Assembly (NCBI RefSeq): GCF_003931855.1
Contig: NZ_CP034248.1
Location: forward strand, 3,844,001 to 3,908,000
Reading direction: 5' to 3'
DNA length: 64,000 bases
From: Paenibacillus lentus
Lineage (GTDB): Bacteria > Bacillota > Bacilli > Paenibacillales > Paenibacillaceae
The translations under genes and the position numbers were made by a program. Each line of letters opens with the position of its first letter. Positions within the stretch are counted from its first letter, which is position 1. The notes under the pieces were generated by a model. The model was not told where the DNA came from. It searched no databases and worked only from the letters and a program-made list of their open reading frames with translations. This document shows positions 7,474 through 11,717 of the stretch, in pieces.

Positions 7474-7503
7474 TTGACAGCCACGGGAAAGCGGTGTTAA
7501 ACT
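7474..7503 (+). promoter_or_regulatory. Sigma-A promoter of the bmr-type leader
   Basis: TTGACA at 7474-7479 is a perfect -35 box. An 18-bp spacer follows, then TAAACT at 7498-7503 with an upstream TG (TGTTAAACT), an extended -10. Initiation near 7510 would place the leader ORF and attenuator on the same transcript as the downstream exporter. Confidence 0.65.
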
Positions 7504-7560
7504 CAACAACATACGAGATCTCATTTGCATTAATTACCAAACTATGAAAGGGTGAGCACG

Positions 7561-7680
7561 GTGTTAATTATCAAACATTCTCCAGCAGCTTATATGGGAC
7601 ATATCTTACAACTGAATACCGGAGCAACCCCTGCAGGCTTGATTGGAGTTTATTCGCGAACTGCACCCGCTGTCTTCTAA
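7561..7680 (+). CDS. Putative 39-codon regulatory leader peptide (BmrB-like)
   Basis: A GTG-started frame with AAAGGGTGAG upstream encodes 39 residues, MLIIKHSPAA to RTAPAVF. It lies between a good sigma-A promoter and a strong intrinsic terminator that precedes bmrCD homologues. In B. subtilis the equivalent bmrB leader is translated so that ribosome stalling by antibiotics allows read-through into bmrCD. I do not claim sequence homology with BmrB; the call rests on position, ribosome binding site and the downstream RNA elements. Confidence 0.6.
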   Translation: MLIIKHSPAAYMGHILQLNTGATPAGLIGVYSRTAPAVF

Positions 7681-7684
7681 ACGG

Positions 7685-7791
7685 GTATAGCAATATCATC
7701 TGGCTGCGGTTGCTACACTTTGTGACAACAGCGTAGCGTTATATGTTATTGGAATTTAAGGCATATCGTTTACGGACGGTATGCCTTTTTT
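7685..7791 (+). promoter_or_regulatory. Transcription attenuator upstream of bmrCD
   Basis: The terminator is a 12-bp stem (7758-7769 with 7776-7787) followed by six T. Upstream are competing pairings. TAGCAA (7688-7693) pairs with TTGCTA (7710-7715), and GCTAC (7712-7716) alternatively pairs with GTAGC (7733-7737). ATATG (7741-7745) can pair with CATAT (7762-7766) inside the 5' arm of the terminator. A ribosome at the leader stop would cover the first segment and favour termination; one stalled earlier would leave it free and favour read-through. The pairings are seen; the mechanism is inferred. Confidence 0.62.
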
Positions 7792-7884
7792 GCGGTTTCT
7801 AATCATCATAAATTTACCTGTAGTGGTTATCTTAGAAAATTTATTTAAATTTATGTAACGACGAGGAATAGGAGGAAAATACTC

Positions 7885-9642
7885 ATGTTTTCCGTTCTGC
7901 AAAAGTTAGGGTGGTTTTTCCGCCAGGAAAAAAAGCGATATGCGATTGGTTTGATCCTGCTCATCGTCACCGGCGTCATAGAGCTCATTCCGCCTAGGCT
8001 GCTGGGCGCAGCCATTGACGATATCGCACGAGGATCCATTAGCTGGAAATCGCTGACTCAATATATTTTAATGACTATCGGGGTACTCATTGTGATTTAT
8101 TATATGACCTACATATGGATGCATAAATTATTCGGCGGCTCTAATCTGGTCGAAAGGCTGCTGCGAACCCGATTCATGAATCATTTACTACGAATGAAGC
8201 CGCCGTTCTTTGAACGCAGCCGCACGGGCGATCTGATGGCTCGAGCGACAAATGATTTAAGGTCCGTTGCCCAAACCACCGGATTCGGCATGCTGACCTT
8301 AACAGATTCCACCGCTTACTTGACGGTCATCTTTGTGGCCATGGGCACGCTAATTAGCTGGAAGCTGACGCTTGCGGCAATTATTCCCCTGCCCTTCATT
8401 GCCCTGGCCATGATGATTTATGGCCGGATTATTCATCAGCGCTATACATTAGCTCAAGATGCCTTTGGCGACATGAATGACCAGGTATTGGAATCCATTG
8501 CCGGTGTACGCGTCATTCGCGCTTATGTTCAAGAGCGTCTTGATGAGAAGCGATTCCAGAATGTTACCGATGATGTATATCGCAAAAATTTAGCCGTGGC
8601 TCGAGTCGACGCTTACTTCGAGCCCACGATTCGTCTCTGCGTTGGACTGAGCTACGCCATCGGCTTAACGTACGGCATCTATCTCGTGTTTCATAACGAG
8701 CTGACCTTAGGAGACCTCGTCTCTTTCAATATGTATCTAGGTATGATGATTTGGCCCATGTTCGCCATCGGAGAGTTAATCAATATCATGCAGCGCGGCG
8801 GCGCTTCTCTCGATCGGGTTAATGAAACGCTGAGTGTTAAGCCAGACGTCGAGGATATTGCCAAGCCTATCCATGTAGATACTCCCGATGTCATTCAGTT
8901 CAACAATGTCACCTTCCAATACCCAACTTCAACGATGATTAACCTGGACAACATTAATTTAATGATTCGTCGCGGGGAGACACTTGGTGTCGTTGGCCGG
9001 ACGGGAAGCGGTAAATCCACGCTTCTGAAGCAGCTGCTGCATGAGTATCCACTGGGAACAGGCGAACTGACCATCTCTGGCGTGCCTATTCAGCATATTT
9101 CACTCAGTCAATTGCACAGTTGGATCGGTTATGTGCCGCAGGAGCAAATCCTTTTCTCCAAAAGCGTCCGGCAAAACATTCAATTCGGTCATGCGGATGC
9201 TTCCGATACGGTCATTATGGAAGCCATTCGAACCGCGGCATTCGATCAGGATCTGGAGACCTTGTCCGACGGACTAGATACATTAGTCGGCGAGAAGGGC
9301 GTCGCCCTCTCCGGTGGACAAAAACAGCGAGTGTCCTTAGCAAGAGCCTTTATTGCGAACCCGGACATTCTGATTCTGGATGATGCACTCTCGGCGGTAG
9401 ATGCCCGAACAGAAGCACGGATCGTTGACAATATTCGGAGCAAACGCTCCGGTAAAACCACGCTCATCTCCACTCACCGGCTATCTGCCGTGGAGCATGC
9501 CGATTGGATCGTCGTGCTGGAGAAAGGGCGGATTATCGAACAAGGTACTCATCGAGATTTGCTGCAGGAAAACGGATGGTACCGAGAACAATACGAGCGT
9601 CAGCAGGTAGAATCGAGCCTCACTGACGGGGAGGTGTCCTAA
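7885..9642 (+). CDS. bmrC: Multidrug ABC exporter subunit BmrC (YheI-like)
   Basis: A 585-residue half-exporter matching B. subtilis BmrC in length and in sequence as I remember it (start MFSVLQKLGWFF; HKLFGGSNLVERLLRTRFM; MYLGMMIWPMFAIGELIN). Six membrane helices precede an ATPase domain with Walker A GRTGSGKST and signature LSGGQKQRVSLAR. Walker B is ILILDDALSAVD, with Asp in place of the catalytic Glu, so this subunit contributes to the degenerate ATP site of a heterodimer. TAGGAGGAAAATACTC precedes the ATG. It overlaps bmrD by one base (TAATG). Expression is probably controlled by the upstream leader. Confidence 0.92.
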   Translation: MFSVLQKLGWFFRQEKKRYAIGLILLIVTGVIELIPPRLLGAAIDDIARGSISWKSLTQYILMTIGVLIVIYYMTYIWMHKLFGGSNLVERLLRTRFMNHLLRMKPPFFERSRTGDLMARATNDLRSVAQTTGFGMLTLTDSTAYLTVIFVAMGTLISWKLTLAAIIPLPFIALAMMIYGRIIHQRYTLAQDAFGDMNDQVLESIAGVRVIRAYVQERLDEKRFQNVTDDVYRKNLAVARVDAYFEPTIRLCVGLSYAIGLTYGIYLVFHNELTLGDLVSFNMYLGMMIWPMFAIGELINIMQRGGASLDRVNETLSVKPDVEDIAKPIHVDTPDVIQFNNVTFQYPTSTMINLDNINLMIRRGETLGVVGRTGSGKSTLLKQLLHEYPLGTGELTISGVPIQHISLSQLHSWIGYVPQEQILFSKSVRQNIQFGHADASDTVIMEAIRTAAFDQDLETLSDGLDTLVGEKGVALSGGQKQRVSLARAFIANPDILILDDALSAVDARTEARIVDNIRSKRSGKTTLISTHRLSAVEHADWIVVLEKGRIIEQGTHRDLLQENGWYREQYERQQVESSLTDGEVS

Positions 9643-11717
9643 TGCCTACGCATACGGGAAAAGCACTATTCAAATACGCCATGACGGCAAAAAATACTTT
9701 TATACTGGCCTTGATCATGTTGGCTATCGGCGTCGCTGCCGAGCTAGCTGGGCCATTTCTAGCCCGCACTATGATCGATGATCACATGCTGGCAATTGAA
9801 CGGCCTTTCTATGAGACGACTGTTCCCAACGAGCAAACGGTATCTTACGACGGACGATACTTCAAACGCGGCGACCGATTTGCTGAAGATGAAGTTAAGG
9901 GGCAAGAAGTTCGTATTCTACAGACCGGTACTTCCTTCGTATTCGTAGATGAGCCTGTAACCCAAACCGACGGAGACCGCACCTATAACAGCGGAGTTCT
10001 AGCGATTGAATACAACGGGCGCACCGACCAATATTCGGCCGTTAAGCTGGCGCCAAAGGAATTATTTGCCTTTTACAAGCCGGAACTCCCCGGCATTATT
10101 ACTCTGGTTGGCTGGTACTTCGCTTTTTTAGCCATCGCGATCGTTATGGAATTCGGCAAAACTTACTGGCTCCAGTCCTCGGCCAACAAAGTAATTCAGA
10201 AGCTTCGTGTCGATGTTTACAGCCATATTCAACGTCTGCCGGTGAACTACTTTGATAACCTCCCCGCTGGCAAGGTGGTTTCCCGGGTCACAAATGATAC
10301 TGAAGCAGTAAAAGATCTGTTTATCGCCGTACTCGCGAACTTCTTCTCAGGCATCATCAATATGCTGGGCGTGTATGTGGCTCTCTTCCTGCTCGATGTT
10401 CGACTTGGATTCATCTGTCTGTTCGTTGTACCTATCATTTGGCTCTGGGTGGTGCTTTACCGAAAATTTGCAACGAAATACAATACGATTATCCGCTCGC
10501 GGCTAAGTGAAATTAACGCCATGATTAATGAATCGATTCAGGGCATGTCGATTATTCGTATATTCCGTCGCGAGGGACAGACCAAGGAAGAATTCGAAAA
10601 TCTGAACAACGATTACATGAACCATCAGAACAAAATGCTAAATCTGAATGCCCTGACCTCCCACAATCTTGTCAACGTCATTCGCAGCTTAGCCTTCGCC
10701 ATTGTCCTTTGGTATTTCGGCTCGGCGCAGTTGACGGGAGCTGGCATTATTTCACTCGGTGTACTCTATGCCTTCGTAGATGTACTCGGACGATTGTTCC
10801 AGCCGATCACCGGAATGGTGAACCAATTGGCTGCGCTTGATTCTTCTATGGTATCCGCTGGACGTGTGTTCAAGCTGATGGATGAACCAGGCGAGGACGT
10901 GACTGATGGCGGTATGCCGAGGTACAAAGGAAACGTCGAATTTAAAAACGTCTCCTTCGCCTACAAAAAGGATTACGTACTGAAAAACATCTCTTTCGAG
11001 GCTAAGCAAGGCCAGACCATTGCTCTGGTCGGTCATACAGGATCGGGCAAAAGCTCGATCATCAATCTGCTATTCCGCTTCTACGATCCCCAGATGGGTA
11101 CGATTACGATTGACGGACAGGATGTAACGACGCTGCCGAAGCAGTGGATTCGCCAGCATATGGGCATCGTCCTGCAAGATCCCTACCTGTTCACGGGCAC
11201 GATCGCTTCAAATGTGAGCCTTGGAGACCAGCGAATCAGCCGGGCGAGTGTAGAGAAGGCTCTTGCGGATGTCGGTGCCACGCGCATTTTGCAGCATCTG
11301 CCAAAAGGTCTGGATGAGCCCGTTGTCGAGAAGGGAAGCACGCTGTCTGCCGGCGAGCGGCAGCTGATCTCCTTCGCTAGGGCGCTGGCATTCGATCCAG
11401 CCATCCTGATTTTGGATGAAGCAACCGCTAATATCGATACTGAGACGGAGGCGTTAATCCAATCTGCGCTAGAAGTACTCAAGCGAGGACGTACGACATT
11501 CATTATCGCCCACCGTCTTTCAACGATCCGCAATGCCGATCAAATTCTCGTGCTGCACCGTGGCGAAATCGTCGAACGCGGATCGCACGAGGAACTGCTT
11601 GCCCAAGGCGGCAGATATTATCAAATGTACCGCCTTCAACTAGGCGCAGCAGAAACAGAAGCACAGCCGCAAACCGCAGGCCCGGTGGCCTCGCGTACAG
11701 CGGTAAACCCAACTTAA
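9642..11717 (+). CDS. bmrD: Multidrug ABC exporter subunit BmrD (YheH-like)
   Basis: The 691-residue partner of BmrC. After the first membrane helix it has an extra domain of about 100 residues (near 50-145) before helix two, the extracellular insertion typical of BmrD. The ATPase domain has Walker A GHTGSGKSS and a canonical Walker B ILILDEATANID with Glu. The signature is degenerate (LSAGERQLISFAR). Together with the Asp in BmrC this gives one competent and one degenerate ATP site, as in the B. subtilis heterodimer, which exports drugs and dyes. Translation is coupled to bmrC. No terminator with a T-run was found directly after it. Confidence 0.92.
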   Translation: MPTHTGKALFKYAMTAKNTFILALIMLAIGVAAELAGPFLARTMIDDHMLAIERPFYETTVPNEQTVSYDGRYFKRGDRFAEDEVKGQEVRILQTGTSFVFVDEPVTQTDGDRTYNSGVLAIEYNGRTDQYSAVKLAPKELFAFYKPELPGIITLVGWYFAFLAIAIVMEFGKTYWLQSSANKVIQKLRVDVYSHIQRLPVNYFDNLPAGKVVSRVTNDTEAVKDLFIAVLANFFSGIINMLGVYVALFLLDVRLGFICLFVVPIIWLWVVLYRKFATKYNTIIRSRLSEINAMINESIQGMSIIRIFRREGQTKEEFENLNNDYMNHQNKMLNLNALTSHNLVNVIRSLAFAIVLWYFGSAQLTGAGIISLGVLYAFVDVLGRLFQPITGMVNQLAALDSSMVSAGRVFKLMDEPGEDVTDGGMPRYKGNVEFKNVSFAYKKDYVLKNISFEAKQGQTIALVGHTGSGKSSIINLLFRFYDPQMGTITIDGQDVTTLPKQWIRQHMGIVLQDPYLFTGTIASNVSLGDQRISRASVEKALADVGATRILQHLPKGLDEPVVEKGSTLSAGERQLISFARALAFDPAILILDEATANIDTETEALIQSALEVLKRGRTTFIIAHRLSTIRNADQILVLHRGEIVERGSHEELLAQGGRYYQMYRLQLGAAETEAQPQTAGPVASRTAVNPT

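Follow-up and report, generated by a model that had tools for sequence, protein, structure and literature searches.

A putative ribosome-sensing attenuator upstream of bmrCD homologues in Paenibacillus lentus, with a leader ORF predicted to bury its start site in its own coding region

In the E. coli trp attenuator, translation of a leader chooses between an antiterminator and a terminator. In Bacillus subtilis, lincomycin, erythromycin and chloramphenicol switch on the bmrCD operon, kanamycin and gentamycin do not, and its induction requires that the leader is translated (PMC4191407). In the vmlR leader the start of an upstream ORF (uORF) lies inside an anti-antiterminator stem, and stalling at that place frees the antiterminator (PMC9226507). 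We found a leader of comparable layout in Paenibacillus lentus, with homologues close to B. subtilis BmrC and BmrD directly 3' of it and an intrinsic terminator between the promoter and bmrC, which begins 77 nt 3' of the leader ORF stop and not inside the ORF. The window, meaning the whole stretch of DNA analysed, comprises 64,000 nucleotides; the host genome is 5.29 Mb, and the relatives that carry names are mostly Paenibacillus. The features, in window positions and all on the forward strand, are as follows.

7474..7503, forward strand: promoter, TTGACA, an 18-nt spacer and TAAACT with an upstream TG (extended -10); from a motif scan, conserved
7546..7552, forward strand: Shine-Dalgarno (SD) sequence of the leader ORF, GAAAGGG; from sequence, in columns that are largely near-invariant in the alignment
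7550..7565, forward strand: putative 5' strand of the start helix P1, made of SD GGGT (7550-7553), GC (7556-7557) and the start region CGGTGTT (7559-7565); from duplex and covariation
7561..7680, forward strand: leader ORF, GTG start, 39 codons, MLIIKHSPAAYMGHILQLNTGATPAGLIGVYSRTAPAVF; from the ORF list, with an SD-led ORF in relatives
7583..7600 (approximate), forward strand: predicted hairpin H1 lying within the ORF, weak in P. lentus and clearer in relatives; from covariation and average fold
7615..7630, forward strand: putative 3' strand of P1, the core, made of AATACCG (7615-7621), GC (7624-7625) and ACCC (7627-7630); from duplex and covariation
7623..7629, forward strand: E2b, AGCAACC, candidate alternative partner of E3, overlapping the P1 core; from an inverted repeat and covariation
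7703..7737 (approximate), forward strand: hairpin H3 with an outer stem, candidate anti-antiterminator; from covariation and average fold
7708..7714, forward strand: E3, GGTTGCT, predicted to pair with E2b or to join H3; from covariation
7732..7745, forward strand: predicted 5' strand of the antiterminator (AT), CGTA (7732-7735) and ATATG (7741-7745), with partners at 7771-7774 and 7762-7766; from covariation
7758..7791, forward strand: predicted intrinsic terminator (T), a hairpin followed by a U run; from an inverted repeat and covariation
7885..9642, forward strand: bmrC homologue, best PDB match YheI (BmrC) of B. subtilis
9642..11717, forward strand: bmrD homologue, best PDB match YheH (BmrD) of B. 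subtilis

The ORF list also contains an alternative in-frame GTG start at 7552. The best 25 NCBIfam matches listed for each transporter all fall short of the cut-off, and for four neighbouring proteins NCBIfam gave no match. At the bmrC/bmrD junction we observe in eight loci (L073, L075, L078, L083, L093, L026, L128 and L134) that the bmrC stop is TAG and that the frame runs on into bmrD, so that one read-through of this TAG would fuse the two pump subunits; in all of them except L093 the bmrC end reads TAGGAGG, overlapping an SD-like sequence, and in L001, L023 and L024 the bmrC frame does not run on into bmrD.

The regions upstream of bmrC that we compared came from searches of the genus and the class and from 80 named loci, and we located promoter and terminator in them with loose patterns (TTGAC; a hairpin with a CATA-like sequence, then a T run). 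Of 145 Paenibacillaceae regions, a count in which some genomes are repeated, 143 yielded both, whereas L023 (terminator not found) and L090 (promoter not found) did not pass the cut. This bears out the earlier note, which had described a promoter, a 39-codon ORF, alternative pairings and a terminator before bmrCD homologues. From the 110 distinct leaders, among which TTGACA and TG.TAA are conserved, a 93% identity threshold left 77 representatives; two further alignments, A1 with 30 genus leaders and A3 with 52 leaders, were hand-picked, and the BmrC tree holds 72 taxa, omitting the five of the 77 that come without a gene sequence. Additionally, 20 other-class loci were picked by hand from a listing, and 16 more distant paralogue regions were inspected by eye only. 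The conserved blocks are the promoter, blocks in the 5' UTR, the SD and start, the terminator and the core, which reads ACAA.T.AATACcGgAGcA. A covariance model built on the segment from SD to core (R1, 52 leaders) returned one strong match in each of 38 of 39 genus genomes, many of which are in its training set, with E-values from 3.4e-19 to 4.2e-8, together with six additional weak matches (E 0.013-0.093). The genome without a match, G027, is 85% complete and also lacks a bmrC match at 1e-200. By their coordinates all strong matches sit just upstream of bmrC, and we therefore see no sign of the element before other genes in these 39 genus genomes.

The main feature, absent from the earlier note, is the helix P1, in which CGGTGTT, holding the GTG start, would pair with AATACCG, GC with GC, and the SD GGGT with ACCC of the core. 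By our reading the best duplex between SD/start and ORF interior lies in the P1 register in 69 of 77 leaders, two of them in part only, and only in 34 of 77 is its energy such that at most 5 of 100 shuffles match it. Across the 77 leaders P1 is paired in 87.3% of cells, compared with 35.0-47.4% in slid controls, and double changes occur in 31 cells against 8.3 after shuffling; the 52-leader alignment gives 87.7% paired cells and 17 double changes against 4.7. The start codon's first base lies in a GC pair in 57 leaders, in an AU pair in 11 and in a GU pair in 2, being unpaired in 7, and because this pair switches between GC and AU among leaders the start codon and the core co-vary. On the BmrC tree both sides of a P1 pair change on one branch 13 times, against about 3.7 from a simple product expectation, the pair being kept in only 6 of these 13. 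When the SD-to-core segment is folded alone, a calculation that has no control, the start codon pairs with the core at a mean probability of 0.91 and above 0.5 in 72 of 77 leaders, a count lowered by an automatic core position that is wrong for some rows (e.g., L139). In a longer segment the SD-to-start stretch of Paenibacillaceae is occupied by the ORF interior at 0.73 versus 0.55 in shuffles, with 74 of 77 leaders above their shuffled mean and only 16 of 77 matched by at most 2 of 40 shuffles. RNAalifold gave no consensus structure for the 52-sequence SD-core alignment A3. Overall, the comparison supports a leader ORF whose SD and start codon would be buried in a helix with its own core.

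The downstream half would fold in competing ways. E2b:E3 pairs in 89.8% of cells in the 30 genus leaders, where one slid control reached 67.6%, and in 78.1% in the 77 leaders, with slid controls up to 51.2%. In the same 30 genus leaders H1 is paired in 69.2% of cells, with double changes in all six pairs, and H3 in 84.7%, its outer strand overlapping the antiterminator; the AT, which competes with the terminator, pairs in 93.7% of cells there and in 81.2% in the 77 leaders. The terminator is paired in 98.3% of cells (77 leaders) versus 31.3-66.7% in slid controls, with 68 double-change cells against 17.0 after shuffling. On the BmrC tree, same-branch changes are strong for the terminator only (14 vs about 1.1) and weak for E2b:E3 (7 vs 3.4) and AT (4 vs 1.6). 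The search for co-varying stems that the earlier note had proposed was thus clearly positive for the terminator and positive for P1, the other stems being weaker. A pairing of 7504-7510 with 7768-7774, seen in average folds, was set aside because 7504-7510 probably precedes the transcript start.

Taken together, comparison among relatives supports P1, E2b:E3, H3, AT and T, next to the promoter and the SD-led ORF, as the predicted components of the leader, and we infer that P1 is linked to the choice of terminator in Paenibacillus. We lean, by a small measure, towards reading the leader as a BmrB-type attenuator that senses ribosomes, controls transcription of bmrCD and works like the vmlR leader: a ribosome stalled near the start would free the core and allow read-through. 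Without a ribosome P1 would hold the core, and under free translation the ribosome would run over it; with the core held or overrun, E3 would fold into H3, AT would stay incomplete and T would end transcription. A 50S drug that holds the ribosome at or just after the start codon would instead cover the 5' strand of P1, upon which the core would pair with E3, H3 would open, AT would replace T and bmrCD would be transcribed. Since it is the drug-held ribosome at the start that would free the core, the signal would be the position of the ribosome at initiation or early elongation, and not a specific arrest peptide. The BmrB-like layout and logic, which had been suggested from the P. lentus sequence by itself, gain support from position, conservation and covariation. 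The reading also fits what has been published, namely the dependence of B. subtilis bmrCD on leader translation and its response to 50S drugs (PMC4191407), and the response of the vmlR leader to ribosomes stalled at its uORF start (PMC9226507).

The leader peptide bears directly on this reading. All 77 representative leaders have an SD-led ORF that by our reading runs through the core (with manually adjusted starts in L013 and L027); it starts with GTG in 58 and with ATG in 19, and spans 24-71 codons in the 75 leaders measured. The N-terminal half of the peptide varies freely, whereas 70 of 77 Paenibacillaceae leaders, judged by the start-to-core distance modulo 3, read the core in the QLNTG frame, and some SD-led leaders of Bacillus encode the similar segments QLNIGVT or QFHICVT, so that the suggestion of a conserved layout with an unconserved peptide holds in part only. 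It is conceivable, though in our judgement unlikely, that a QLNTGATPAG-like segment stalls the drug-bound ribosome in the ORF at the core, as in erm and msr leaders, and that this sets the RNA fold; the frame shared by most leaders, the unbroken passage of the ORF through the core and the Bacillus segments speak for it. However, the core nucleotides fall in a different frame in seven leaders (L032, L147, L148, L150, L153, L160 and L161), giving, e.g., TIEYRCSP, and an arrest peptide conserved in one frame, as expected of the erm/msr type, is thus not what we find; the SD-led ORF of the B. subtilis type reads the core as SYWRGKP, and a ribosome sitting on the core would hide E2b. Because of these seven leaders, a conserved RNA core is the likely cause of the peptide likeness. 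The core is likely held largely as RNA, with the frame usually but not always kept, which argues against a strict arrest peptide and also against simply unrelated peptides.

A second explanation accepts P1 and confines its role to masking the start behind the first ribosome, so that the leader would be limited to about one round of translation and P1 would not influence whether AT or T forms. Equilibrium folding in Paenibacillus, where no coupling appears, agrees with it. Before the 3' arm of the terminator exists, blocking the start in Paenibacillaceae raises E2b:E3 from 0.02 to 0.16 only, and a ribosome-sized block leaves AT at 0.22-0.24; once the whole hairpin is present, T stands at 0.94-0.95 and AT at 0.00 at every ribosome position tried. 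With the start blocked, core-to-downstream pairing in Paenibacillaceae is 0.22 versus 0.24 with shuffled downstream sequence (29 of 76 leaders above), and the block has no effect on the terminator arm. Furthermore, E2b (7623-7629) lies outside the start-codon half of P1 (7615-7621). Against masking alone stand the overlap of E2b with the SD half of P1 (7624-7630) and a shift of downstream pairing under a start block in other Bacilli. In 31 leaders from there, core-to-downstream pairing climbs from 0.15 to 0.40 under the block (0.22 with shuffled downstream sequence; 23 of 31 above), and the terminator arm pairs upstream at 0.68 instead of 0.53 (shuffled 0.53). These calculations use few shuffles (8 per leader in other Bacilli, 5 in Paenibacillaceae, 40 for L222) and skipped 1 of 32 and 1 of 77 leaders in the two groups, respectively. 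We consider a masking role alone improbable, and keep to the reading in which P1 acts on the terminator.

We also examined bmrC orthologues in other families of Bacilli, where the leader sequences differ and the layout is similar, the leader ORF being chosen by hand and nearly always the best-scoring SD-led ORF. In 27 of 32 leaders there is an SD/start duplex of other sequence that no more than 10 of 200 shuffles equal; with L192, L195, L054 and L067, in which the duplex was not found and of which L192 has no SD-led ORF at all, the total is 27 of 36 orthologue leaders. The SD-to-start stretch is occupied at 0.77 versus 0.50 in shuffles across the 32, with 31 above and 20 matched by at most 2 of 40. 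Separately, in L178-L185, L191 and L194-L196 the last ~100 nt before bmrC hold a second short SD-led ORF, which in several Bacillus-type loci ends in EGG, ESG, DSG, NSG or EGD plus stop; none caught our eye in Paenibacillus. In L042-L044, L046-L049, L186 and L188-L190, all of other Bacilli families, the leader ORF contains the element GTGACCTC or a close variant. Two tandem hairpins precede bmrC there, and by eye the first of them contains a CAGGTCAC-like sequence complementary to this element.

A direct comparison with the model case is offered by L222, a B. subtilis-type locus in which all 576 compared residues of BmrC agree with PDB YheI. The bmrB frame of L222 is 53 codons (162 bp) long and stops 119 bp short of bmrC, the same as published for B. 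subtilis (PMC4191407). We observe, 16 nt upstream of the annotated GTG, an SD-led ATG that opens a 23-codon ORF in another frame, overlapping annotated bmrB and reading the core as noted above. This SD-led start is occupied by the core at 0.89, versus 0.53 in shuffles and at a level that 1 of 200 shuffles reached, whereas for the annotated GTG the occupancy is 0.002 and there is no locking. Blocking the start raises upstream pairing of the terminator arm from 0.63 to 0.97, against 0.53 to 0.58 in shuffles. Among ten loci of the MPRN... leader type, L222 included, an SD-led ORF of 23-32 codons is present in all ten, and an annotated-type GTG in seven, its ORF ranging from 16 to 61 codons. By this comparison annotated bmrB, which the earlier note had taken as the reference peptide, is a doubtful one. 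When BmrB was fused to GFP in the annotated frame, the fusion was visible from a plasmid and not from the single chromosomal copy (PMC4191407).

A third possibility is an attenuator independent of translation, in which the structured leader would respond to a protein or small molecule, with an ORF that is incidental. The 5' UTR blocks CATACGAGATC and TAATTACC (window 7511-7539), conserved in Paenibacillaceae leaders and lacking an assigned partner, would suit such a ligand. Against it stand the SD-led ORF kept through the core in every representative leader, the requirement for translation in B. subtilis (PMC4191407) and the Rfam searches, in which no family, riboswitch or other known cis-element, matched the leader at the gathering threshold and only three matches, all far below it, appeared at E<=5. 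We regard this alternative as very unlikely.

Finally, taken as a single sequence the leader is unremarkable. Its whole fold has a z of -0.95, with 18 of 100 shuffles folding equally well, it holds 2 promoter-like sites versus 3.0 in shuffles and thus no excess over chance, and the terminator at 7758-7791 is absent from the single-sequence scanner list. The inverted repeats in the leader are 7758-7769/7776-7787, the terminator arms (12 nt, 92%), 7623-7634/7703-7714 (12 nt, 83%) and 7668-7687/7714-7733 (20 nt, 70%). This signal barely beats chance, and we accept the promoter, the pairings and the terminator as real because they are conserved in relatives. Chance complementarity next to an ordinary terminator, which these weak statistics would allow, is scarcely credible given the covariation of P1 and the terminator and the recurrence across Bacilli.

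We tentatively propose a wider view, which may well prove too broad: that across Bacilli the bmrCD leaders are sensors of initiation occupancy with their own anti-SD/anti-start strand, in which the peptide would be largely irrelevant and start and core would co-evolve. The working leader of B. subtilis would then be the SD-led 23-codon ORF (MPRNLRVYQTVSYWRGKPFVLFS), so BmrB may not be the sensor, which calls into question the sensor ORF in the model case. If true, one pump operon could respond to 50S inhibitors of unlike chemistry with no need for an arrest peptide specific to a drug, and the drift and frame change of leader peptides while regulation persists would be explained. The anatomy, an SD/start complementary to the core of its own ORF, offers a pattern to look for upstream of other resistance genes.

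This kind of attenuator is already known from bmrB, vmlR and cplR, and it is the start-locking part that may be new. A literature search, mostly at abstract level, found no Paenibacillus bmrCD leader, no SD/start helix in bmrB, and no leader ORF that supplies its own SD/start and coding core as co-varying helix strands recurring in bmrCD leaders of Bacilli; a search of PMC10219788 for bmr terms found none. The B. subtilis bmrB attenuator shares with the Paenibacillus leader the operon, a leader ORF and a terminator with competing structures (PMC4191407), the Bacillus leaders L178 and L181 show, on inspection by eye, a AATACCGG-like core, and the B. subtilis-type locus L222 has an SD/start hairpin. 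The two differ in that the B. subtilis terminator lies inside annotated bmrB, whereas that of Paenibacillus lies past the ORF stop, and in that three structures are predicted within nucleotides 60-162 of bmrB, with no SD/start helix described in the accessible portion of that account (PMC4191407). The vmlR leader likewise has its uORF start in an anti-antiterminator stem and an antiterminator freed by a stalled ribosome, but its uORF has three codons and precedes an ABCF gene (PMC9226507), the likeness considered being one of layout; the far longer ORF of Paenibacillaceae supplies both strands of the start helix, one from its own SD/start and one from its coding region. In the C. difficile cplR leader a 5' hairpin sequesters the regulatory uORF and stalling induces, whereas this uORF has three codons and translational attenuation of the main gene is added (PMC10201436). 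The trp attenuator senses an amino acid through its codons, whereas the bmrCD leader would sense a drug-held ribosome near its start.
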